The translations under genes were made by a program, and so were the position numbers. The notes below the pieces were generated by a model, which was given only the letters and a program-made list of their open reading frames with translations, searched no databases and was not told where the DNA came from. DNA of 64,000 nt. Origin: a virus. Numbering within the stretch: position 1 is the stretch's first letter; every line of letters begins with the position of its first letter. The stretch lies in IMG/VR virus record IMGVR_UViG_3300009011_000002, positions 162,774 to 226,773 of that record; one strand, given 5' to 3'. Shown piece after piece: positions 19,596-33,705 of the stretch.

Positions 19596-20594
19596 ATGAG
19601 TTTATTGCATTGTCTGGGTGTCGGTACCGTTACTCAGACTAAGGAGACAAACACCGACACGGTTATGGTGTACTGCCCGTTCCTGTTCCCTAACGCCGAA
19701 GGGCGTACCGTTAACAACGTGGAGCAGGTTGAACAAACCAGTTTGAACGCCAAAGGCGAAGAAGTCAAAAGTAACAACATGCGCAGCAACTCGGTGCCTG
19801 CGAAGTGGATGAACTTGGGGGATAACAACCGTATTACCTCCCCAGACGTCCGAGAAGGGTCCCAGGTAGCGATCTACAACGTGGACGGTGGTAACCAACT
19901 GTATTGGACCACCCACGGCGTTAACAGTGAAACCTTCCGGTTGGAATCGGTGATGTACGGCTGGTCGTCTAACCCTAAGCTGTCTGAGAACACACCTTTC
20001 GATCCGGACAACTTCTACACCGCCAAGGTTTCCACCCACGACGGTATCTTTGCTTTACGTACGTCTATGGCGAACGGGGAGAAATCCAAGTTCGACGTGC
20101 AAGTAGACGGCATGAACGGTCGGGTCTCGGTCGGTGGTTTTAATAAGGGGTTGTTTGTCCTCGATGATGTCGAGAGCAGTCTGACCTATAGTAATAAAGA
20201 GGGTTCGATTGCTCGGGTAGTGAAGAAGCAGGCCTTCATTAAAACCGAAGACATGATTGGTTTCTTTGCAGCTGAAACCCTGAACATCAAAACCAAGGTG
20301 ATCCAGGTCCAGGCCGAGTTAGCCAAGATCGACATCAAAAGAACCCAGTGGTTGGGGGACATTGAACAGACGGGCAACACGGAACAGAAAGGTGACTACA
20401 CCCAAGAAGGTGATTTCACTCAAGTGGGTGACTTCTTCCAAGAAGGCGATACCGTGCGTAACGGTGACAGTACGTCTACCGGTACGGTTACTGGTCTTAC
20501 CGATGTCATTGCTCCACCGATCAGTCTGCGTTTCCACCTCACCAGTGGCGTACGTGGTGGTCCCGATACTTCAGGCCCTCCTACACCTGCGTAA
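19596..20594 (+). CDS. Baseplate spike-like protein (gpV/gp45 style), 332 aa
   Basis: The N-terminal about 110 residues look like an OB-type domain. Residues 120-240 are beta-rich. Residues about 252-300 hold a regular short repeat (GDIEQTGN, QKGDYTQEGD, FTQVGDFFQEGD, VRNGDSTSTG) typical of the triple beta-helix of membrane-puncturing phage spikes such as P2 gpV and Mu gp45. The C-terminal tail is rich in G, P and S. This would put it at the tip of a contractile tail. It is the only plus-strand gene in this part of the map, with its own terminator. The assignment rests on repeat style, not on an alignment. Confidence 0.6.
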   Translation: MSLLHCLGVGTVTQTKETNTDTVMVYCPFLFPNAEGRTVNNVEQVEQTSLNAKGEEVKSNNMRSNSVPAKWMNLGDNNRITSPDVREGSQVAIYNVDGGNQLYWTTHGVNSETFRLESVMYGWSSNPKLSENTPFDPDNFYTAKVSTHDGIFALRTSMANGEKSKFDVQVDGMNGRVSVGGFNKGLFVLDDVESSLTYSNKEGSIARVVKKQAFIKTEDMIGFFAAETLNIKTKVIQVQAELAKIDIKRTQWLGDIEQTGNTEQKGDYTQEGDFTQVGDFFQEGDTVRNGDSTSTGTVTGLTDVIAPPISLRFHLTSGVRGGPDTSGPPTPA

Positions 20595-20642: not shown

Positions 20643-23528
20643 TTAGCTGATCTTGTCGCGCTTGGTGAAGAACTTGTTCACCCCATCCGCACCGTTGTCA
20701 CGGAAGCATGGGATTACACCACCTGCACGGACATCGTTAACTACCCGGTTGTCCATGACGATGTATTCACGGTTGACAGTCATTACACCGTCCACAGCAA
20801 TACCGAACAACAACTCACCGTTGTTAGGCTCCCGCTTAACCGAAGAGGCCAGCGTCGCCAAGGTGTTACCGTAACGTACCAAGTAGCAGTACGTGGTCCC
20901 GGTGGCACTCACCTTAATCGGATAGTCCCGATCGAGGATGTAGGTCCGACCGTTCATGACCGCACGACCCCCTGCTGGCAATCGAACCCAACCGGCTTCG
21001 TTGATCTCAAACGGATCGAACTTACGAGTACCGCCGATCTCACTCATGTTCGACGTGAACCGGGTGTTGTCACTGTCCATCTGGTACATACCCCGGTTAG
21101 GGATCATCACCAGTGGGTACAGTTCCTCGGTTACGTCAAAGGTCGAACCCTGGACGTACAGCTTGGCAGGGTTGACCACCACAGGTGTGAAGACTGGGTT
21201 AGCGCCAGTGATGGCACTCACGGTGAAAGTGAGGTCACCGTAGACTTCCCCGAACGGACGACAGATACCGATCTGGTAAGCATTGGTACCCGTCTGGAGG
21301 GCGAGCATGTCCGAGTAGGCCATCCATACCCCGTCACCCGTTTGCGACTCACGCGTGATCCCAGGAACTGTCAGACCCGTTGCGGTTACCGGCGTCAACT
21401 TCAAACCACCGGTGGTGATGTAATCCAGCACAAAGCTACCACCATCCACCGTGAAGTTACCGATACCGGCTTCTGCATAGCACACACCGTCCGAGATCAA
21501 GATCAATGCTTTGTTAGCCGTCAATGCAAAGACCTGGATCTGCGATACTCGCAAGGTATTGTTCACCGCAGGGTTAGCTGTACGGGCACGACCCATGACC
21601 TGAGCTGCAGTCGCCTGCAAGGTCAGCAAGCTGGCAAACGACAATTCCAAGTCAGCCCCCAAAGTGAGAACCTTGTTGGAATACGCCAGCGAGGCTTTAC
21701 CCCGGTAGTTGTTCTGCGTGGAGAATGCCATGGCGTTGACTGACGCACCTGCACCGTTCTTGTTCGCCACAATGGACAAACCGGACGGCAGAGGGCCGAG
21801 GTTCTTGTTCTCCTCGATTACCGGGGCTACCTTCACCCCGATACGGTCAGCGGTCTGAGCACTGATAATACTTGCCTCAGGCCATGCCATTTCCACCCAC
21901 TTGTACTGACCCACACCTGCGTCCAGTCCGTAGACCAGATACTGGGTACGGCCGGTGTCGTGGGAGAACGGGATGATCCGCTCTGGGAATGCCGTGAAGC
22001 AGTTGTGGCGAGCTGGCATGAACACTTCAGTTGCCGCCAACCGGGTGTCGATTGCCGGACGTTTGTTGTCCATCAACCAATCGGCCAACGTGGCATAGCC
22101 CGAAGTCTGATAGCGCTTGACCCGGATACCATACTTACTGGCAACCGCACGTACCAACTCACCCTCACCGACCATTGCACCCGGAGACTGCAATGCGTTG
22201 GCAAAGTCAAGACGGTTGTTGACCCGCAGCATGGTGGCGTTAGCCCCGATCGTACCGTCTGCATTAATCACATCTTTGGTACGGGAACCCAACGAAGTGA
22301 TCTTAGCACTGCCGCCCGACGCCAGTGTACCTGGGATGTAGGCTTCGGTCAGGTTCAACACGAAGTCGTAGTTCACCGAAGCAATTCGCACACGCACAGG
22401 AATCTGCATGTTCAGGTAAGCTTCTTGGTCCTGGACGTTCCAGAACAACGAACACACGATGGTGTGGGTGTTCACCCCCGCAATGCTGACCTGAGACCCG
22501 GCAGGGAAGTCCACGTACTTGGTCAAGTCAATGTCATGGCTCAGGCTGGCCGGGCCACTGTACGGCGTTTGCCCCATCAGGTCATACTGCGCCAAGTAGG
22601 TCTGGTCCACGATCTCTTGAACGATCGGGTTAGTCTGCGCTTGGTCAACGTAGAAGAACCGATGGTGCATGGTGATGATGTTGCCACTGAAGACATAGCC
22701 AACCGCCATGCCTTTAAACAGCATCGACGCATACCCCCGGTAGAACAGGAAGTTGCGCCCACTGCCTGGCAGAGTCAACCCGTTACGGAACTGATACAGC
22801 TTCTTGTCAGCCAAGGCTTTGAAGTAAGCAATTTGTCCGTTACTGGCCGAACACCCAACCTGGTTCCACCCCCACGAGTTGTAGCGAATGGTCAATGGAG
22901 GGGTCTCACCCAACTGAGTCCGTTTAACAGGACCCACTGGAGCCGACTCGAACGCCACCTGGTTCTGGTACTGCGCAGTGTCCGATACCGCCGACATAAC
23001 CAACCGGTCGTTGTTCAGCAGAATCGCCACCCGCAGGTCAGCACCGAAGTAGCGTGTAGGCTCTACCCTGGTCAGGGTTGCCATCGGATACTTGTCGGGG
23101 AAGTAGAACGAACTGAACTGGAACAGGTCGTTGCGCTGGTAGTTATCCAGCACAAACTGAGCGTTGTTCGTTTCGATCGACTGCTTGGCGCCCTGGGGGG
23201 TTACAAACGCATCAACCGGAGTCAACGCAATCTGTTCCGCCAGCGTAGCCACCCGGAAGTTGTCTTTCTTCGACAAGCCAGCAGTAGCCTTGGTTTCACC
23301 GTGTACAGCACCCCGTGCAGCCAAGTGGGTATTGGTAGGTCCCACCACGCTGTTCACGAAGTCGTTCAGGTTAACGTTCAGCTCTTCCAGCTTCAGTTTG
23401 ATGTTGTCCCCGAAACTAACGGTCTTCTGTTCGAAGGTGTACGCCAGTTTGTTGAGTCGCTGGATCACGACCCCCAGTTCGGGTTCTGGGTTTTCAATGT
23501 GGGGTGGTTCCCCACCAAGAATAATCAT
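20643..23528 (-). CDS. Large tail-fibre-like virion protein, 961 aa
   Basis: The start at 23528 (MIILGGEPPH) has GGAG eight bases upstream; the frame opens 16 codons earlier. The first about 100 residues are coiled-coil-like. A NTHLAARGAVHGETKATAG and DNFRVATLAEQ block matches a block in the two larger upstream proteins, and the last about 130 residues (AGWVRLPAGGRAVMNGRTY) resemble their C-terminal module. The middle is beta-rich and S/T/N-rich, as in fibre shafts. Probably an adsorption structure of the tail; host receptor unknown. It is the last of a series of large paralogous genes and ends at a bidirectional terminator. Confidence 0.68.
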   Translation of the reverse strand: MIILGGEPPHIENPEPELGVVIQRLNKLAYTFEQKTVSFGDNIKLKLEELNVNLNDFVNSVVGPTNTHLAARGAVHGETKATAGLSKKDNFRVATLAEQIALTPVDAFVTPQGAKQSIETNNAQFVLDNYQRNDLFQFSSFYFPDKYPMATLTRVEPTRYFGADLRVAILLNNDRLVMSAVSDTAQYQNQVAFESAPVGPVKRTQLGETPPLTIRYNSWGWNQVGCSASNGQIAYFKALADKKLYQFRNGLTLPGSGRNFLFYRGYASMLFKGMAVGYVFSGNIITMHHRFFYVDQAQTNPIVQEIVDQTYLAQYDLMGQTPYSGPASLSHDIDLTKYVDFPAGSQVSIAGVNTHTIVCSLFWNVQDQEAYLNMQIPVRVRIASVNYDFVLNLTEAYIPGTLASGGSAKITSLGSRTKDVINADGTIGANATMLRVNNRLDFANALQSPGAMVGEGELVRAVASKYGIRVKRYQTSGYATLADWLMDNKRPAIDTRLAATEVFMPARHNCFTAFPERIIPFSHDTGRTQYLVYGLDAGVGQYKWVEMAWPEASIISAQTADRIGVKVAPVIEENKNLGPLPSGLSIVANKNGAGASVNAMAFSTQNNYRGKASLAYSNKVLTLGADLELSFASLLTLQATAAQVMGRARTANPAVNNTLRVSQIQVFALTANKALILISDGVCYAEAGIGNFTVDGGSFVLDYITTGGLKLTPVTATGLTVPGITRESQTGDGVWMAYSDMLALQTGTNAYQIGICRPFGEVYGDLTFTVSAITGANPVFTPVVVNPAKLYVQGSTFDVTEELYPLVMIPNRGMYQMDSDNTRFTSNMSEIGGTRKFDPFEINEAGWVRLPAGGRAVMNGRTYILDRDYPIKVSATGTTYCYLVRYGNTLATLASSVKREPNNGELLFGIAVDGVMTVNREYIVMDNRVVNDVRAGGVIPCFRDNGADGVNKFFTKRDKIS

Positions 23529-23553
23529 AGCGACACTCCATGCTAAAAGAGTA

Positions 23554-23571
23554 GGGGAGGTTACCCTCCCC
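23554..23571 (-). terminator. Hairpin terminator after the 1197-aa gene
   Basis: GGGGAGG-loop-CCTCCCC (7 bp, 4-nt loop), followed on the minus strand by TACTCTTTTAG. It lies in the 51-bp gap between two fibre-like genes. Confidence 0.72.
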
Positions 23572-23579
23572 CTCAATGG

Positions 23580-26500
23580 TTATGGCAAGAGCTCCGCCTC
23601 ACGCAGGAACGCGAAGATGCCCTCGTCTTGTGGGAACCCGGTACTGATCGGAATGATCCCCCCTTCACGGGTGAAGCTGAAGAGGAAGTCACCCACCATG
23701 AGCGGCTGCAACCGTTGGATACTGAGGATCTGCAACTGAGCGGTTGTGACCACCCCCACCAACATCATCGAACCCGACTTACGGAGTTTGACACCAGAGA
23801 TGAAATACCCGGGCGTGTCATCCTCGATTGTCGCGTAGACGTAAAACGTCTTGTTCGCTGGGGCTGGGTCGATATCCCGCAGGTCTATGGAACCCCCCGG
23901 CATCTCGTAGTTGGTTCCGTTGATCATCATCCGGATACCATCCTGGAAGAACAGTGTCCAGCCTGTTTGCGGGTACACGGTAGGACCAATATACCAGTCA
24001 ATAACCCCGGTTGTTTCATCGGTCTTGTGCAGCAACCGCGCGGCACCGCCGGTGTAGTCGTAGACCGCTGGAGTCACGGTGTTGATACGGCCAGTGTCCA
24101 CACCCCCCGTCAACCCCACATCACTCATACCCACCTTCGGGATTGGTGCACACAAGTCTGGCACCGACCACGACGCTTGGTAGGAGAAAATGTTCTCGAG
24201 CTTGTTGGTCGGGATATCCACATCAAACCGCGCCGTTTGCCGGGTATAGATGGTTGCTGTGGTGTTGGTGGTGTAGGCATTCATGTTGTATATCTGCAAC
24301 TTGTTACCGTCGCGGTAGATGTACATCCCGGCTTTGGAACGAGTACCTACCAATCCCAATAGATTCTGCTCGGCAACCCGGTTGTTGATTGCGCTGCTAT
24401 AAGCCGCAGACGTATCCAGGACAGTGATGTCCTTGATCCAATGCACATCCGGATGGTCGGCATTGGGTGCTTCTACTACGGGGCGGAACAACACAAAGAT
24501 CTGGCGGGTGAACTGCTTGGCAGGGTCCTGGAACGCAATGATTGCAATGCCCAAATTCAAGCCTTTGAACATCCCACCCATCTCGTTACCAAGGATGTGG
24601 AAACATACCGACCATGGCTTGTGTGCCGTGTAAACTGCCGGAATCATCGCTTCCATCTTGTCGATGAGTTCTTTCCGTACCCCGTAGAAACTGGTTGGGG
24701 TATACGTTGCCCGTTTGGTACCGGCATCCAAGACCTTGTTGAACGTCCGTGCGCAGGAGATCAACATGCTGTTGGCTGCTGGGGCCGTGAAACCAGCCGA
24801 CCTCGGGTAGGAATGCCCCGCCCCCATGGAGGAGTACCCCATAGACGCCAATGACGTACTACCGCATTCTACCCCACCTGCTGTCAACTCAGCCGCACTT
24901 CCGGTGATACCGATAGGGGCTTCGTAATACGCCATGTTGGTTTGGTAGATGTCGTTGGTCAATGGGCGAGACTTGATCCCACTGACTTCCGTGTTGGTCA
25001 CTTCAGGTCGTACAGCGTAAGGACCCGAGACTTTACGGAAATACGTCGCACGGGTGTTAGTTACCGGGTTTGTCGCAGAGTACAGTTCACCATCAGCTTC
25101 GTACGTCATGGCTGCTGGGAACACACCACTCAGCAATGGAGAACCCACCATCTGACTCACCCGGCGCTGTTCCTTGACCGGGGTGTAGATAATGTCCATA
25201 CGTTGCGACAGAACTTCCGCGGCGGTCTTACGGCCTTCATACACCAGCTTGGTCATGTACGCCGGGAAGTTGTTACCCCCCGAAGACGTGGCCATGAGAA
25301 TCTCACCACTGTCAAGAATAACCCCACACGAACCAGCAGCCTGACCGTAGCCATCGTAGAACTGGTAGTAGTGGGCCCGGGTGTAATCCTGGCGTTCGGT
25401 TTCCGTGGTGTTTTCGTAGTCGGCCGTCCAAGATGGGTTACGGAACACCTCCGTGAACACGCCTGTCGCTGGGTTGAACTCGTAACCGGTTCCCATTACC
25501 GACGAAATGTTTCGAAGTTCAGTAGCGGTACGGTAACTGGAGTTCATGCCCTGCAAGATGAAGAGGTATTCAGAAACCGAGTTGTTAGGCTTCTTAGCGT
25601 TCAGGAACATCGTCTTACCACCACGGTTGGTGGAAATCGGAGGTTGCATGAAAGTGATCGGACCCCAACCGGTGAGGACGCCGTTAGTGCGGACTTGCTG
25701 CATCGGCTGGAAGCGCTCGACGTTGGTCTGCTGAACGTTCTCGTAGTTCTTGTAGGTGAGCAGGATTTGCTCCCATTCGAGAATGTCGTGGTTCTCTTTG
25801 AACTTCGACACTGGGATCCGGAAGAACAAGTGCACGTCAACGTTGCTGGTACCTGGGGAGATAATCAGAACAACATAATCACCCATCAGGTGGATGCTCA
25901 GGCGGTTATCCGTGTTGGCATAAACCGACAGCACAGCTTTACCCTTAGCCAGCACTGGGGCCATGTTGACTTCCGTGTACTGATGCGCGGTAGCATCCAG
26001 TGTACCGTTAGTCAAGGCAACGAACCAACGGTCCAAACCATCATCACCTACCATGATCACACGGTGGTTACTCCCACCCACCACGGTCGTTGGGTTGAAG
26101 TTCTTAGCCAACAACGAAGGGGCTTCGTACTTATAACCGGTGTAGGTGATCTTTGGGTTGGTGGTGAAGAATTCGGCAATCTGGGAGTAGTACAACCCCT
26201 CGTTACGACCGTCGTTGTGGCTAGTCAGCATCATGATCAGCCCGGACTTCTCCAAGCAGAATGCCGACGATACCGACAACGACCCTAAACCTTCAAAGGC
26301 ACCGGAGATGTTTGGCGGAATGAAACTCTCACCACCAAACTTACTGATTGGCATGATACCCGTACGCATCGCTGCATCCGTGTCCGGGATGTACGACTTG
26401 GCGAGTTCCTGGATACCCTGAGGAGTCGACAGTACGTCCGCACGAATACCTGCCTTGTCCTCTGCCAACGTTGCCGTGGCGAAGTTAGGGTGGTTACCCA

Positions 26501-27173
26501 TGAGGATGTCGAACTTGGTGATCAGGTGTGGGGAGTGGTAGTTGTCGTCGTGGTTCTTCAACAACGTCATGTACTGTGCTTTGGTGGTCTTCAGCACGTT
26601 GTACGCGTTGGTGATGGTTGTGTCCACGTCAACGCCCGTCGACGCACCTGTGGTCTTCCAGAGGCCTTGGAAGACCTTACAGAAGTAGGTGAGCTCCCAC
26701 CAGTCACCAATCTCGGTTTTGATGTTCTGGATGTGCAATGCCGGAGGCAGGGTCTCTGGCATCCCGAAGACCTTGTCCCACGGGATAGGGACCTTACCTT
26801 TGTGGAGCTTCTCCATCCACCCCGCCAGTTGACTGCGAGGGACGAAGTACGCACCGATCGATTGGTAGTCGATGGTGATGTGGGTGTTCGCTGCCAGCAC
26901 CGCATTGGACACACGGATGAAACTGCACACCGACTTGTTGGACGCATTACAGAAGGGAACAAACTCCCCCTCGAAGAAGTAGTCAGTGTTAAGCTTGAGC
27001 AACCCACCGGCTTGGTTGTACACCTTCACCATTGCAGGTACTGCAAAGAACGGGGAACCATCCGGGATTACCCAGTTCAACGTTTTGTCTTTCAGAAGAA
27101 TCTTTTCACCCGGGATGGTGTTCACCGGGTTTGTTGCGTGGACGTCAAACTCTACCAGTCGAATGGGATCCAT
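23580..27173 (-). CDS. Large tail-fibre-like virion protein, 1197 aa
   Basis: Block order matches the 1177-aa upstream neighbour. The N-terminal module (about 1-150) contains DGSPFFAVPAMVKVY and ITIDYQSIGAYF. A helical linker leads to the block PISKFGGESFIPPNISGAFE near residue 280, and a long beta-rich middle of about 600 residues with propeller- or jelly-roll-like strands follows. The C-terminal module has SIDLRDIDPAPANKTFYVY. Identical phrases in the neighbour (PISRFGNTNFIPPSIDGSFE, NIDLRDINPTPANKTFYIY) show duplication. Such modular fibres usually recognise host surfaces. Probably expressed late with the other fibre genes. Confidence 0.72.
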   Translation of the reverse strand: MDPIRLVEFDVHATNPVNTIPGEKILLKDKTLNWVIPDGSPFFAVPAMVKVYNQAGGLLKLNTDYFFEGEFVPFCNASNKSVCSFIRVSNAVLAANTHITIDYQSIGAYFVPRSQLAGWMEKLHKGKVPIPWDKVFGMPETLPPALHIQNIKTEIGDWWELTYFCKVFQGLWKTTGASTGVDVDTTITNAYNVLKTTKAQYMTLLKNHDDNYHSPHLITKFDILMGNHPNFATATLAEDKAGIRADVLSTPQGIQELAKSYIPDTDAAMRTGIMPISKFGGESFIPPNISGAFEGLGSLSVSSAFCLEKSGLIMMLTSHNDGRNEGLYYSQIAEFFTTNPKITYTGYKYEAPSLLAKNFNPTTVVGGSNHRVIMVGDDGLDRWFVALTNGTLDATAHQYTEVNMAPVLAKGKAVLSVYANTDNRLSIHLMGDYVVLIISPGTSNVDVHLFFRIPVSKFKENHDILEWEQILLTYKNYENVQQTNVERFQPMQQVRTNGVLTGWGPITFMQPPISTNRGGKTMFLNAKKPNNSVSEYLFILQGMNSSYRTATELRNISSVMGTGYEFNPATGVFTEVFRNPSWTADYENTTETERQDYTRAHYYQFYDGYGQAAGSCGVILDSGEILMATSSGGNNFPAYMTKLVYEGRKTAAEVLSQRMDIIYTPVKEQRRVSQMVGSPLLSGVFPAAMTYEADGELYSATNPVTNTRATYFRKVSGPYAVRPEVTNTEVSGIKSRPLTNDIYQTNMAYYEAPIGITGSAAELTAGGVECGSTSLASMGYSSMGAGHSYPRSAGFTAPAANSMLISCARTFNKVLDAGTKRATYTPTSFYGVRKELIDKMEAMIPAVYTAHKPWSVCFHILGNEMGGMFKGLNLGIAIIAFQDPAKQFTRQIFVLFRPVVEAPNADHPDVHWIKDITVLDTSAAYSSAINNRVAEQNLLGLVGTRSKAGMYIYRDGNKLQIYNMNAYTTNTTATIYTRQTARFDVDIPTNKLENIFSYQASWSVPDLCAPIPKVGMSDVGLTGGVDTGRINTVTPAVYDYTGGAARLLHKTDETTGVIDWYIGPTVYPQTGWTLFFQDGIRMMINGTNYEMPGGSIDLRDIDPAPANKTFYVYATIEDDTPGYFISGVKLRKSGSMMLVGVVTTAQLQILSIQRLQPLMVGDFLFSFTREGGIIPISTGFPQDEGIFAFLREAELLP

Positions 27174-27202
27174 GATGTAACCCTATATGAAAAAGAAAAG
27201 GG

Positions 27203-27225
27203 GTAGGAGGGGGTTACCCTCCTAC
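27203..27225 (-). terminator. Rho-independent terminator after the 1177-aa gene
   Basis: GTAGGAGGG pairs with CCCTCCTAC (9 bp) around a short loop. On the minus strand CCCCTTTTCTTTTTC follows, a good U-rich tract. Confidence 0.82.
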
Positions 27226-27241
27226 TCCCTCTATAAAGTTG

Positions 27242-30200
27242 TCAAGGGAGCATTTCAGTCGAACGCAGCCATGGGATCTGGCCTTCGTCGTTAATGAGAC
27301 CCGACGACGCTGGAATGCTGTTACCACGCTTCACTTCAGACACTCGGTGGCCGTCTATTGCAAACACGTTGAAACGTTCTACCGAGATGATCTGACGATC
27401 GTTGGTGACAGCCCTGCCGACCCACAGTTGGAAGTTGGATTCCAACCGCTTATCTTCCGACACTTCGTACTTCGCTTCCCCGCCATCCATCAAGGCGTAA
27501 ATGTAGAACGTCTTGTTGGCAGGGGTCGGGTTGATATCGCGCAAGTCGATGTTCCCCGTGGGCAGAGTATACAGCTTGCCGTTAAAGACCGCTGTCAGTG
27601 CTGCCGAGAAGTACAACACCCAACCTGTTGCAGGGTAGGTATGACCGTACAGGATCTCCTTGGTTGGCCCTTGGAACATGGTACCGGCACCACCCGTGGA
27701 CGTGCTATGGGCAATGGCGTACACCACACCGTCATCAGGTGCCACACACTTGTGGCGACCACCACCGCTTTGTCCAATGATGGTTATCCAAGTACTACCG
27801 TCTGTAGACCACCGCTTAGTGGTGCGGTCAAAGCTGAAGGTGCAGTACGACACCAACCCGTCACCTGGACCCGACGCATAGATAGCCGGGTCAAAGAATC
27901 CGGTGACTGTGTTACCGTCCACATGGAACCCGGCACGTTGCGTACCGTGGGTGGAGTTCGGGTTGCTGTTGCCCCACAGTGCGGCGTCCCAGTAAGTGCT
28001 GGTCAAAGAAACCGCGCAGTTCTCGAATATGGCGTGCATCTTGTCCAGAACAGTGAACCCAGTTACCGTACGGTTGGTGGAGCCGGAGTAGATGGGGGTA
28101 ATACTCAGCAACGTCTCACGACGGTTAGTGGTCCCCACCTTGCCCCAACAAATTTGCACCAATACCGGGAGCCAACCGAACTTCGCGGTCAGAGGACCGT
28201 TAGGGTCACAGATCGACACGAACACACTTGGGCAAGCGTTCAACCCAGCCACATCGTCCACTTGCTGCTTGAGCAACGCCACGATAGCCGCGGGATACAA
28301 GATCGATCCCGTAGGAACAATGGTGATGGTCCCGTTGGTTTCGATCTTCCGGGTGTGTCCGGTCATGATCATGACGTCTTCAGGGTTGCTCCCCATAGGC
28401 CATGCACTGGCACCTGGCCACGCAGACAGGTCACACCAGCGTTTCTGGGTCCCAACACAAAACGCATTCTCCGCCAAGTCAATCCCGTACGTGCTCAACT
28501 GGGCTGTTGGGCAAGTAACACTGGCGGCGCCCACCCGAGGGTCTGCGTTGACCAGTCGAACGTCGTTACTCAGTGGGCGTGACAACACATTCGGGTAGAA
28601 CAAGTTGGTCACTTCCGAGCGCTGGGCCAAACGACCGTTACCCACTCGGTAGAACAGTTGCAAGTAGCCGAGGGTGTCTGGGTTTGGCGTGGTGTAGAAA
28701 TCACCGCCGTTACCCAAAATGAACGAACGTGGTTTGATGCTGGATTTCAACGGGCTGAGCACCGACTCCAGCACATCACTGATCTGGCTCATGGAACCCA
28801 GTTGAGTGTTCCACTGCCGGTTCATGGTATCATAGCGGGTCTTCCAGTCCTTGGGACGCCATATCACCGTACCCCGTGGGAATGACTGGTAAGTCCCATA
28901 AGACACCACAATAGAACCGTCTTCCAAAACAGTCCCGCCTTGGCAGTTATCTTGGAACACCAGGGCGTTCATGCTGATCGGCCCGATACTTGGTAGGTTG
29001 GTGTAATCCAGCGTGTACCGCGGGGTCTGGTACAACAACGTCATGACGTTGGTAGTTGGATCGAACTCATAGACCATTTCGATCATGAGCTCATAACCTG
29101 CCGTGAACTCCGGGATGGTGTACTTCGACCACCACGCACCTGTAAAGCGCAACAAAAACTTCCCAGGTTTACTCGGGATGGGTGAAACGTACGTTTGCTG
29201 TGAGCGGTAGCACCCCGTGCACGAGACGTTTTCCGTCTGCACAATGGGGAAGTACCACTTCAAGAAGGACGCCCCCAAACCGTTAGGATGAGGGATCGGA
29301 GTCCCCCAACGCCACACCGGGGAGTTGGTCCATTGCACACCCTCGCCGTCTTTAAAGGTCAGGTTAACCAATGCCGCAGTCACCGGCAATTGAGCTTCGA
29401 CGGTCGCCTTCGGTACCCGGCCAATGTAACGGTAGTTGAAACCACCCCCCACATCAGCAAGTTTGTTGCGGTACGGAGTAGCCATGATGATGTAGATCCA
29501 ATCCCCCACCAACACCACGTTGGTGTACTGGAGGAAAGAGATCATATCCGCACCCGCATTAACCGCAGGGGCAAACGCCGACATGTCCAGCTTACTGATC
29601 ACGTGTTTCGACGGGTTCAAGGATCCGTTGGTCAACCCAACATACCACTGGGCTTTACGGCTGTCGGCCACCAGGATGACTTCGCCACCACTGCCTTGTG
29701 CAATGAAGTTCGGGACAGTCCCGTCTGCTTCAAAACGTTGGTGGTTGTAGCGGTAACCGGTGTACTGCCGCTTGGGGTTGTCGTACGGGGTTTGGACCAC
29801 CGAGTAATACAGACCGTCCACACGACCGTCCATGCGGTTTTCCAAGAACACAAGCGAGCCATCGGTTTCCATGCAGATACCGGCGGTCTCGTACATCCCA
29901 CCCAGACCTTCAAACGAACCGTCAATCGATGGTGGAATGAAGTTGGTGTTACCGAAGCGGGAGATTGGCAGGGCGTTGGCTGGCAGGAACTCGTCGCTGT
30001 TAAAGCCGAAGTTGTCAATGATGGTCTTCAGGCCCGACACCGTAACGTGGAGATCGTTACGACCTTGCAGCAGAGTGTTACCCCGCGCTGTGGCAAAGTT
30101 GTCTACCTTCTCCAACCCGAAGTCTGCCGTCTTCAATCCGTGCGCGTTATACGCATTGATGTGGTTGTTCAAGAAGGTGGTCAACATCTTCTTGTTGAGT

Positions 30201-30775
30201 TTGAGGTAGTTGTTGAGCAGGTTGAGGTAGTGGTCTACCCGAATCTCGATCGGCTTACGCAGGCCCGACTCGGCGTATTGCAGGATGGTGTCCAAGCAAT
30301 CTACCACGTCCTGGAAGGCCACAATCGTGTACAGCAGGGAGTGACCATGCACCGGCGGTGGGAAGACGATCGGTTTGTCAGTGAGATTATCCCAATGAAC
30401 AGGACGGTCGTCATTCGCAGCGGCGTCAATCAGTTGGAGCATCGACGCGTCAATCAGCGAGAATTCACCCACTACCTTGTACGACACCAACACGTCTTTG
30501 ATGTCGGTATCGATCATTTCGATGGTGCAGGAAACTTCCTTACCTGCCAGCGCAGTCAGACGTGACATCAAGGTGTAGATGCGGTAGTGAACATCCGGGA
30601 CGAGTGGACTCCCATTGGCCGCTTTCAGTTCGAGGCTATCGACGAAGAAAGGTGCATGGCGTGGAGTCCAAACGATCAACCCCTCGGTGAGTTCCTTGGG
30701 TTCATCGAGAACGTTGTTATCCGGATTGATCCCGCGGATGCTCGTCTGGTATTCACGAACAATGGGAAATTGCAT
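27242..30775 (-). CDS. Large tail-fibre-like virion protein, 1177 aa
   Basis: AAAGGA lies eight bases before the ATG (MQFPIVREY). The N-terminal module holds PRHAPFFVDSLELK and DVLVSYKVVGEF; a helical section (about 150-220) leads to HGLKTADFGLEKVDNFATA and then PISRFGNTNFIPPSIDGSFE near residue 275. The long middle is beta-rich. The C-terminal module has GNIDLRDINPTPANKTFYIY and ends LRSTEMLP, against LREAELLP in the 1197-aa paralogue. It is a member of the four-gene fibre family, 12 bp after the 248-aa short member. Likely a host-adsorption fibre. Confidence 0.72.
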   Translation of the reverse strand: MQFPIVREYQTSIRGINPDNNVLDEPKELTEGLIVWTPRHAPFFVDSLELKAANGSPLVPDVHYRIYTLMSRLTALAGKEVSCTIEMIDTDIKDVLVSYKVVGEFSLIDASMLQLIDAAANDDRPVHWDNLTDKPIVFPPPVHGHSLLYTIVAFQDVVDCLDTILQYAESGLRKPIEIRVDHYLNLLNNYLKLNKKMLTTFLNNHINAYNAHGLKTADFGLEKVDNFATARGNTLLQGRNDLHVTVSGLKTIIDNFGFNSDEFLPANALPISRFGNTNFIPPSIDGSFEGLGGMYETAGICMETDGSLVFLENRMDGRVDGLYYSVVQTPYDNPKRQYTGYRYNHQRFEADGTVPNFIAQGSGGEVILVADSRKAQWYVGLTNGSLNPSKHVISKLDMSAFAPAVNAGADMISFLQYTNVVLVGDWIYIIMATPYRNKLADVGGGFNYRYIGRVPKATVEAQLPVTAALVNLTFKDGEGVQWTNSPVWRWGTPIPHPNGLGASFLKWYFPIVQTENVSCTGCYRSQQTYVSPIPSKPGKFLLRFTGAWWSKYTIPEFTAGYELMIEMVYEFDPTTNVMTLLYQTPRYTLDYTNLPSIGPISMNALVFQDNCQGGTVLEDGSIVVSYGTYQSFPRGTVIWRPKDWKTRYDTMNRQWNTQLGSMSQISDVLESVLSPLKSSIKPRSFILGNGGDFYTTPNPDTLGYLQLFYRVGNGRLAQRSEVTNLFYPNVLSRPLSNDVRLVNADPRVGAASVTCPTAQLSTYGIDLAENAFCVGTQKRWCDLSAWPGASAWPMGSNPEDVMIMTGHTRKIETNGTITIVPTGSILYPAAIVALLKQQVDDVAGLNACPSVFVSICDPNGPLTAKFGWLPVLVQICWGKVGTTNRRETLLSITPIYSGSTNRTVTGFTVLDKMHAIFENCAVSLTSTYWDAALWGNSNPNSTHGTQRAGFHVDGNTVTGFFDPAIYASGPGDGLVSYCTFSFDRTTKRWSTDGSTWITIIGQSGGGRHKCVAPDDGVVYAIAHSTSTGGAGTMFQGPTKEILYGHTYPATGWVLYFSAALTAVFNGKLYTLPTGNIDLRDINPTPANKTFYIYALMDGGEAKYEVSEDKRLESNFQLWVGRAVTNDRQIISVERFNVFAIDGHRVSEVKRGNSIPASSGLINDEGQIPWLRSTEMLP

Positions 30776-30787
30776 AACCCGATTCCT

Positions 30788-31534
30788 TTAGTTGATGTTC
30801 AGGGTACCGTTTGCCATGCGACGGAAGGCTTCCTTCATGACGCTCAGCGGCACCAGCTTGTTGCCACTGTTGGCGTCCAGGTCGTCGACGGTAGCGGCTG
30901 ACATGTTCGGGGTCAGCCCCAGGCCGAAGTCATCAGCCGTGGCGGCGTGTGCCTGGATAAGATCCTTGGCGATGTGCTCTTCGAACAAAGCCCGGATGTC
31001 GGTAGCACCCTGTGCTTGTGTGACCACCAGCAGCAACGACTTGAACTGGGTGATGAACTCCAGGTAGTCATAGGTCTGAGCAGCTGGGTGTGGGTGTGGG
31101 TCTTGCGGAAAGGTCGATGGGATGGTAACCCCATCCAGATCTTCCCACGACGCGATACGCGGCTGGGTCAGGATGTTGATGACCAGTTCAGCGAACGCCA
31201 CCTCGTCCAGTACGAATGGACCACCGATGGTGTCGTAGCCGATGTTGATCACCTTGTTGGTGAAGTCTTTCAGCAGAACGACGGAACCGAAGGCGTTGCG
31301 TTTGTAGGTGGTGATAAAGCCATCGAACGGGTGGGCAAAGGCGTAGTCTTCACCCAACTTCAGGTCGCTGGTAGCGCCGGCTACACGAATGCTGAAGTTC
31401 TTGCTGTAGAACGGAGCGGCACGAGGAACGAATTCACGACGGGTGGAAACAGCAGAAGTCTTGAGGACTTCGGTGGCAATACGGCAATCGATACGTTCCT
31501 GGAAGGGGTTCCATTCGTAGACAACGTTGGCCAT
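30788..31534 (-). CDS. Short member of the fibre-like family, 248 aa
   Basis: AGGAG lies six bases before the ATG. It consists almost only of the N-terminal module of the large neighbours: PRAAPFYSKNFSIRV, a KLGEDYAF turn, NIGYDTIGGPFV and SWEDLDGVTIPSTFP match their order. It then has a reduced form of their second block (TADDFGLGLTPN). The long shaft and the C-terminal DLRDI module are missing. It may be an adaptor that joins longer fibres to the tail, or a relic of duplication. It is the first gene of the fibre operon. Confidence 0.7.
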   Translation of the reverse strand: MANVVYEWNPFQERIDCRIATEVLKTSAVSTRREFVPRAAPFYSKNFSIRVAGATSDLKLGEDYAFAHPFDGFITTYKRNAFGSVVLLKDFTNKVINIGYDTIGGPFVLDEVAFAELVINILTQPRIASWEDLDGVTIPSTFPQDPHPHPAAQTYDYLEFITQFKSLLLVVTQAQGATDIRALFEEHIAKDLIQAHAATADDFGLGLTPNMSAATVDDLDANSGNKLVPLSVMKEAFRRMANGTLNIN

Positions 31535-32894: not shown

Positions 32895-33479
32895 ATGGGC
32901 GAAAAAATCCGCGGTCTGTTCTTTACCGACCGTTTAAGGAGCTTGGTGTCAACCATCATGCTCATCCTCATCTTCGGGGCTATCTTAGTCTCGTGGATGT
33001 ATCCCAAGACCCCTAAAGCAGAGATCGACCCCAAGTCGATTGAGCTGTTTGAAAAGGTCGCGGACAAACTCGAACGGGCAGCTAACACGTTCGAACAACA
33101 GGGCAATAACACCGCTGCCCTTAACGAGACCCTGAAACGGCAATTGGACCTTCAGGATCAGCAAAGGACTATCGCTTATGACGTGCTCTACAAACGTTGG
33201 GGGATTGACCCCGCGGGCCCTCCTCCGGGCGAAGTTGGCTTCTCTGATAATGCCCCGCCTGCACATTCCCCTGTTACTGTTCCTGGTATGCATACTCGTC
33301 AGCGGCTGCAGCCACCAGACGACCATCTCCGAGGCGAGTACGTACCTCCAAGCGAAAGCACTGGAGGTCGAAATTACCAGCTACAAGAACCAGCTGCAAC
33401 TCACCAAGAAACGTTTGGTAGAAGTGATACCCGAGTTCCAGGAGGTAACTCCGCTACCACCGACCGCACGGGTGGGTGA
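32895..33479 (+). CDS. Putative inner-membrane spanin (i-spanin), 194 aa
   Basis: A basic N-terminus precedes one transmembrane helix (about residues 17-35, STIMLILIFGAILVSWMY). A charged coiled-coil stretch (45-95) and a P/S/G-rich C-terminus follow, the layout of an i-spanin. A lipoprotein gene in another frame starts inside it, the classic overlapping spanin arrangement. Spanins fuse inner and outer membranes at the end of lysis. It is somewhat longer than the lambda Rz protein. The call depends on architecture and pairing. Confidence 0.65.
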   Translation: MGEKIRGLFFTDRLRSLVSTIMLILIFGAILVSWMYPKTPKAEIDPKSIELFEKVADKLERAANTFEQQGNNTAALNETLKRQLDLQDQQRTIAYDVLYKRWGIDPAGPPPGEVGFSDNAPPAHSPVTVPGMHTRQRLQPPDDHLRGEYVPPSESTGGRNYQLQEPAATHQETFGRSDTRVPGGNSATTDRTGG

Positions 33480-33705
33480 GCTGGCCAACTTCTTGGAGAA
33501 CAACGACTGCGAAAAGGTCGAGAACAAGAAGTACTGTTATCAGCTTACCCGCTACAGGCTTATCCAGGTAACGCAGATGTTGGATGAGGCGTCTGCGGAA
33601 AATTGGGCTGCGAAGCTCACGATCCGACAACTACAGGATAACGTCAGTGTCATCATTGACGGGTTGGGTCAACGTGAGAAAGAAGTAACCGCACCCAAGC
33701 AGTGA
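33250..33705 (+). CDS. Putative outer-membrane lipoprotein spanin (o-spanin), 151 aa
   Basis: The ATG at 33250 (MPRLHIPLLLF) opens a hydrophobic signal that ends in the lipobox LVSGC near residue 20. Residues after the acylated cysteine are charged and helical, with a coiled-coil stretch (KALEVEITSYKNQLQLTKKR) and two more cysteines in a NNDCEKVENKKYCYQ loop. The first about 230 bases overlap the i-spanin gene in another frame. It is longer than Rz1-type spanins. The ribosome site is weak, so coupled translation is likely. Confidence 0.68.
   Translation: MPRLHIPLLLFLVCILVSGCSHQTTISEASTYLQAKALEVEITSYKNQLQLTKKRLVEVIPEFQEVTPLPPTARVGELANFLENNDCEKVENKKYCYQLTRYRLIQVTQMLDEASAENWAAKLTIRQLQDNVSVIIDGLGQREKEVTAPKQ

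Follow-up and report, generated by a model that had tools for sequence, protein, structure and literature searches.

Replacement of the middle segments of tail-fibre-like proteins between EL-type jumbo phages at conserved gene slots

Horizontal exchange of tail-fibre tips is well known in phage evolution; it occurs in P2-, Mu- and T4-like phages, and is reportedly the subject of Haggard-Ljungquist (1992). The proteins analysed here belong to an already described family, called phiKZ gp131-type or SPN3US family C. phiKZ gp131 has a C-terminal seven-bladed beta-propeller (PDB 4GBF) and is located at the periphery of the baseplate. The SPN3US members gp168-170, named "Paralog family C" and similar to phiKZ gp131, were detected in virions and were absent from a tailless mutant (PMC5694885). 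Neither a module map of the EL-type proteins nor an exchange of internal middles at two slots was found in the open-access papers that were searched.

The four-gene cassette and its relatives

The locus lies in the final 64 kb of a viral record of 226,773 bases (IMG/VR record IMGVR_UViG_3300009011_000002). This stretch of 64,000 nucleotides, analysed as a whole, is referred to as the window. A preliminary description had proposed that four modular, tail-fibre-like paralogues lie in a row. This was borne out by four minus-strand open reading frames and by the homology of their profiles. The genes and their immediate neighbours are:

19596..20594, plus strand: baseplate assembly protein (PHROG 3216), a cassette neighbour likewise in EL and relatives
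20643-23528, minus strand: A961, open reading frame of 961 amino acids
23580-27173, minus strand: B1197, open reading frame of 1197 amino acids
27242-30775, minus strand: C1177, open reading frame of 1177 amino acids
30788-31534, minus strand: D248, open reading frame of 248 amino acids
31584..32882, plus strand: phiKZ gp130-like virion protein (PHROG 3337), adjoining D248

A961 could also start at an upstream TTG, which would add 16 amino acids. Profile searches of the whole record identified these four proteins as the sole family members in the 226.8-kb contig. A megablast search of cultured phages with the region gave no match, and none of the four proteins matched Pfam. PDB sequence searches with D248, C1177 and A961 returned nothing usable, and no relative of B1197 was found in bacterial genome contigs. 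Downstream of the gp130-like gene two overlapping plus-strand frames (32895-33479 and 33178-33705, the second with the lipoprotein-like signal LVSGCSH) sit where Rz/Rz1-type spanins have been annotated in relatives.

Among cultured phages, Pseudomonas phage EL is the closest relative: its gp113, gp114, gp115 and gp116 correspond to D, C, B and A, respectively. Genes, order, neighbours and modules are as in the window, with identities of 51, 50, 34 and 45% for D, C, B and A, respectively; the middle of the EL B protein belongs to a different, strongly diverged type (28% identity to that of window B). The D-C-B-A order with the same neighbours was found in EL, in RisingSun and in about twenty IMG/VR contigs, and the cassette is present in part in N1M2, OBP, D3, D6, AH04 and pEt-SU. 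Judged from these comparisons, the four-gene architecture is ancestral and its order conserved; it is not the product of recent shuffling.

phiKZ gp131 matched the profiles of D (E 3e-19) and of the C N-terminal (N) module (E 3e-17), and D248 is homologous to the N-terminal third of gp131. The gp131-type N module is present in B, C and D, and A961 has only the stem box. In phiKZ itself gp131, gp133, gp134 and gp135 share the N module and gp132 shares the stem box. The gene neighbourhood is also of the gp131 type: the product of the gene adjoining D248 matched phiKZ gp130 (E 1e-12) and SPN3US gp171 (E 8e-13). Unlike B, C and A, gp131 has no C-terminal module, and its propeller has no sequence relation to the B, C and A middles (E above 0.1). 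In SPN3US all three of gp168-170 have the N module, as do B, C and D of the window; the C-terminal module is present in gp168 and gp170, and gp168 has the first part of the middle as well. These proteins are larger (1237-1727 amino acids), with other domains added. The neighbouring gp167 is D-like, and gp167-170 carry the N module in whole or in part.

Module map of the four proteins

B1197 and C1177 are collinear over nearly their full length in pairwise BLAST and phmmer comparisons (E 1e-50 for the N-terminal two thirds, E 1e-27 for the C terminus), but the same searches gave only weak signals for D248 and A961. Profile-profile comparison, with profiles built from 20 to 40 orthologues, defined the following modules, all on the minus strand:

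30788..31534, minus strand: D248, N-terminal anchor module alone (EL gp113, 51%; matched by phiKZ gp131)
29990..30775, minus strand: C1177 N module, amino acids 1-262, with a beta domain, long helices and a His-rich stem box
27656..29989, minus strand: C1177 exchanged middle, amino acids 263-1040; amino acids about 284-660 are a predicted beta-propeller
27245..27655, minus strand: C1177 C-terminal module, amino acids 1041-1177 (IDLRDI..PANKTFY; profile comparison)
26409..27173, minus strand: B1197 N module, amino acids 1-255 (profile comparison)
23994..26408, minus strand: B1197 exchanged middle, amino acids 256-1060 (78% identity to the middle of L038:11618-15226 of another phage)
23583..23993, minus strand: B1197 C-terminal module, amino acids 1061-1197 (profile comparison)
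23079..23528, minus strand: A961 N-terminal helix and stem box, amino acids 1-150, lacking the anchor beta domain
21069..23078, minus strand: A961 middle, amino acids 151-820; amino acids about 156-506 are a predicted lectin-like beta-propeller
20646..21068, minus strand: A961 diverged C-terminal module, amino acids 821-961 (E 1e-7 to C, 4e-7 to B)

The N module, which the preliminary description had assigned to the 1197-, 1177- and 248-residue proteins, was recovered in all three pairs (C-B E 3e-37, D-C 5e-26, D-B 2e-19), and D248 consists of this module alone, in agreement with the earlier remark that it holds only the first part. The "central block" noticed in the two largest proteins turned out to mark where a homologous middle of about 780-800 amino acids begins, with one C-B match per half (E 5e-89 and 4e-40). 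The C-terminal module, said to be clear in B and C and diverged in A961, gave E 3e-50 for C-B, 1e-7 for A-C and 4e-7 for A-B. A further shared part, absent from the earlier list, is the stem box, which corresponds to residues 30-125 of A961 (A-B E 3e-12, A-C E 3e-11). Since these matches are strong and control pairs for which no match was expected gave E values of 0.03-0.7, the shared phrases are neither chance similarities nor short motifs. Profile-profile comparison detected no sequence relation of the A961 middle to the B/C middle, nor of one half of the C1177 middle to the other.

The modular nature of the proteins is also evident from relatives that carry the modules apart or recombined. 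In RAY, FishSpeaker, PS1 and contig 3848_5 proteins of 416-424 amino acids consist of the N and C-terminal modules joined without a middle (such genes lie at L006:11587-12846, L035:10953-12215, L065:8001-9251 and L014:14773-16047), and in other contigs proteins of about 190-300 amino acids match the C-terminal module only. C-terminal modules also form part of middle-less proteins with a length of about 240 amino acids. D is 245-260 amino acids long in most relatives; five contigs have versions of 618-642, with a collar-type fibre tip of 370-390 additional amino acids after the N module. In the four full-length cases this tip is accompanied by a reading frame of 176 amino acids; the two such frames that were searched matched Caudo_TAP, a family of tail-fibre chaperones, with E values of 2e-9 and 2e-8. 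One example of long D with its candidate chaperone frame is L044:2166-4067 with L044:4072-4599; the other long D proteins are in L045, L022, L034 and L016. In Klebsiella phage Miami (L008:14001-16772) D is fused to a Tail_spike_N-type linker and a GH28-like domain (E 9e-9), and the fusion is a probable depolymerase. The A slot codes for 956 to 2676 amino acids in the annotated relatives; the A-slot proteins of D3 and pEt-SU (L010:19403-27433 and L013:22376-27475) contain extended BspA-type leucine-rich repeat arrays (Pfam DUF285).

Replacement of middles between phages at the same slot

Phages have exchanged the middles of their B and C genes, each within its own slot, and the N modules follow the neighbouring genes. 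The clearest case is that of window B and the B' protein of contig 26445_27 (L038:11618-15226), whose identity is 37% over the N modules, 78% over the middles and 63% over the C-terminal modules. Most neighbouring genes show 40-66% identity between the two phages, and the nearest relatives of the window by neighbouring genes have B middles only 35-42% identical to that of window B. In the tree of B middles, window B and the 26445_27 protein formed a pair with 100% SH-aLRT support. Joining them was rejected for the N module (p-AU 3e-42, mixture model) and for four concatenated neighbouring genes (p 5e-4, AU); the pairs subjected to AU tests, here and below, were chosen after the identities had been seen, which makes any individual p-value optimistic, but in direction and magnitude the tests are consistent. 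A scan of informative sites against the relative nearest in the N module placed the best exchanged interval of window B at amino acids 276-1094, where 94% of the sites supported 26445_27, compared with 22% outside (Z 16.7; the maximum in 300 shuffles was 4.8). At the DNA level the exchanged stretch is 72% and the N part 50% identical.

The 26445_27 locus has two tandem B genes, L038:11618-15226 and L038:15272-18874, in the order D-C-B'-B''-A. B' and B'' are 63% identical in the N module, 73% in the C-terminal module and 48% in the middle, a pattern as expected after duplication and subsequent replacement of one middle. The two genes are likely to represent a recent duplication of the fibre slot.

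Similar relationships were observed at the C slot. Window C and its counterpart in 38441_779 were paired on the middle (99% SH-aLRT), and this pairing was rejected on the N module (p 0.005) and on the neighbouring genes (p 6e-6). The C proteins of 15261_1 and 2162886007_107 were paired on the middle and their pairing on the N module was rejected (p 0.001). Two further comparisons rest on identities: the C proteins of the near relatives 46557_296 and 44852_29 are 93% identical in the N module and 55% in the middle, and the B proteins of the cultured isolate EL and of 15261_1 are 64 and 25% identical, respectively, in these parts. Replacement would fit both, with fast divergence as the alternative. 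The borders of the exchanges recur near two conserved boxes: the stretches start close to PIS.FG...IPP and end close to IDLRDI. No sign of exchange was seen in the A gene, the sliding identity of A961 being even.

An old duplication of B and C, followed by fast drift of an exposed middle without any exchange, would interpret the odd identities as differences in rate. It would agree with the middles being on average the most diverged parts (median identity 30-45%, versus 49-51% for the N and 58-62% for the C-terminal module) and with the B and C orthologues remaining separate. However, rank reversals such as the 37, 78 and 63% found for N module, middle and C-terminal module, the strong AU rejections, and the fact that several pairs have sharp borders at identical module edges make this explanation very improbable. 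It is even harder to regard the mosaic B gene as an assembly chimera. The window and 26445_27 are both metagenome contigs, as are nearly all compared rows save EL and RisingSun, but the exchanged stretches, with 78% protein and 72% DNA identity, are far below the roughly 100% expected of a chimera, the other exchange pairs come from other assemblies, and the pattern is also seen in EL, a cultured isolate.

The preliminary description had taken the shared modules as a sign of shuffling. This holds for exchange between phages at the same gene slot, the comparison with fibres of other jumbo phages having revealed swapped middles there, but not for exchange among the four tandem paralogues. In joint trees B and C formed separate groups, with a support of 100% in the N module, the C-terminal module and all of the middle beyond its first part; in that first part they were also separate, but at only 15% support. 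Identities between B and C from the same genome and from different genomes were equal within 1%. Because the module trees separate B from C and same-genome pairs are no closer, swapping among the tandem paralogues is not supported.

In P2-, Mu- and T4-like phages a conserved attachment part is combined with an exchanged host-binding part, as would be the case here. Unlike in those phages, the exchanged part here is internal, with conserved modules on both sides.

Predicted folds and proposed function

An AlphaFold2 model of C1177, computed from 57 sequences, had a mean pLDDT of 81, with values mostly of 85-97 in the middle and low values at the stem and in the final 30 residues. Amino acids 289-702 matched five-bladed propeller enzymes of the GH32, GH43, GH62 and GH130 types (best Z 12.9). 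These matches had Z scores of 11-13 over about 260 aligned residues with rmsd 4.3-5, and the number of blades is ambiguous; the C middle thus likely begins with a beta-propeller. In the A961 model (mean pLDDT 75) amino acids 156-506 matched six-bladed fucose-binding lectins (Z 10.7), and this part of the middle is predicted to be a propeller of a different type. In both models the Z scores are to be read as indicating fold, not function. The phiKZ gp131 structure 4GBF was absent among the matches listed for the C and A models, which is no evidence against a shared fold. The predicted viral structures most similar to C include proteins of RisingSun/Joad and of CBB-type jumbo phages. The B/C modules have further relatives in L072, L075 and L079, contigs of 355-366 kb and thus of CBB-like size. 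Because of these contigs and the CBB structural matches the family may cross jumbo-phage groups.

Could the middles be catalytic? As five-bladed propeller glycosidases (GH43/32/62/130 type) cutting capsule or LPS, they would be exchanged as the substrate differs. Enzymes of this kind gave the best structural matches to the C middle (Z 12-13 over some 260 residues), and in Miami the D slot includes a GH28-like domain. Yet matches to propellers are frequent and reveal no function, and the Pfam search of the four proteins gave no match. Moreover, the acidic residues conserved in at least 95% of the B and C sequences form no set spread across the predicted blades: most are found within the initial 70 residues of the middle, and the exceptions are E670 and D857 in C and E696 in B. 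Because the shared acidic residues cluster near the start of the middle, a conserved active site is not supported, and we consider the enzymatic explanation unlikely.

The reading that we prefer, with a probability of about three in four, is that the proteins are baseplate fibres of an EL-type jumbo myovirus in which the middles serve as exchangeable binding tips. The earlier label "host-recognition parts" is a reasonable inference. The N module would dock on the baseplate, the His-rich stem would trimerise, and the propeller would bind a surface glycan, so that exchange of the middle would change the surface bound and alter host range. D248 would be an anchor without a tip; in some relatives the D-type anchor would bear a collar-type tip with its chaperone, or a glycosidase-like tailspike. 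Because the B/C middle is flanked by conserved modules on both sides rather than placed at the C terminus, it could also be a segment of the shaft.

The module borders and the tree-based record of exchange point to probable host-recognition proteins of this phage group, in which the annotation of EL gp114-116 and of many relatives still reads "hypothetical protein", and they provide exact domain limits. The EL-type relatives represent a natural set of phages differing chiefly in one putative tip. It has been proposed that recombination is limited where a phage nucleus isolates the genome (PMC13282480), and the recombination at the fibre locus described here took place in a phage group related to those for which such a limit was suggested. 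Tentatively, at somewhat less than even odds, slots B and C may draw independently, each from its own shared pool of large propeller middles inserted between fixed N and C modules at conserved boxes, with slot A varying differently. If this two-slot reading is true, the locus would represent a cassette system for host recognition in EL-type jumbo phages.
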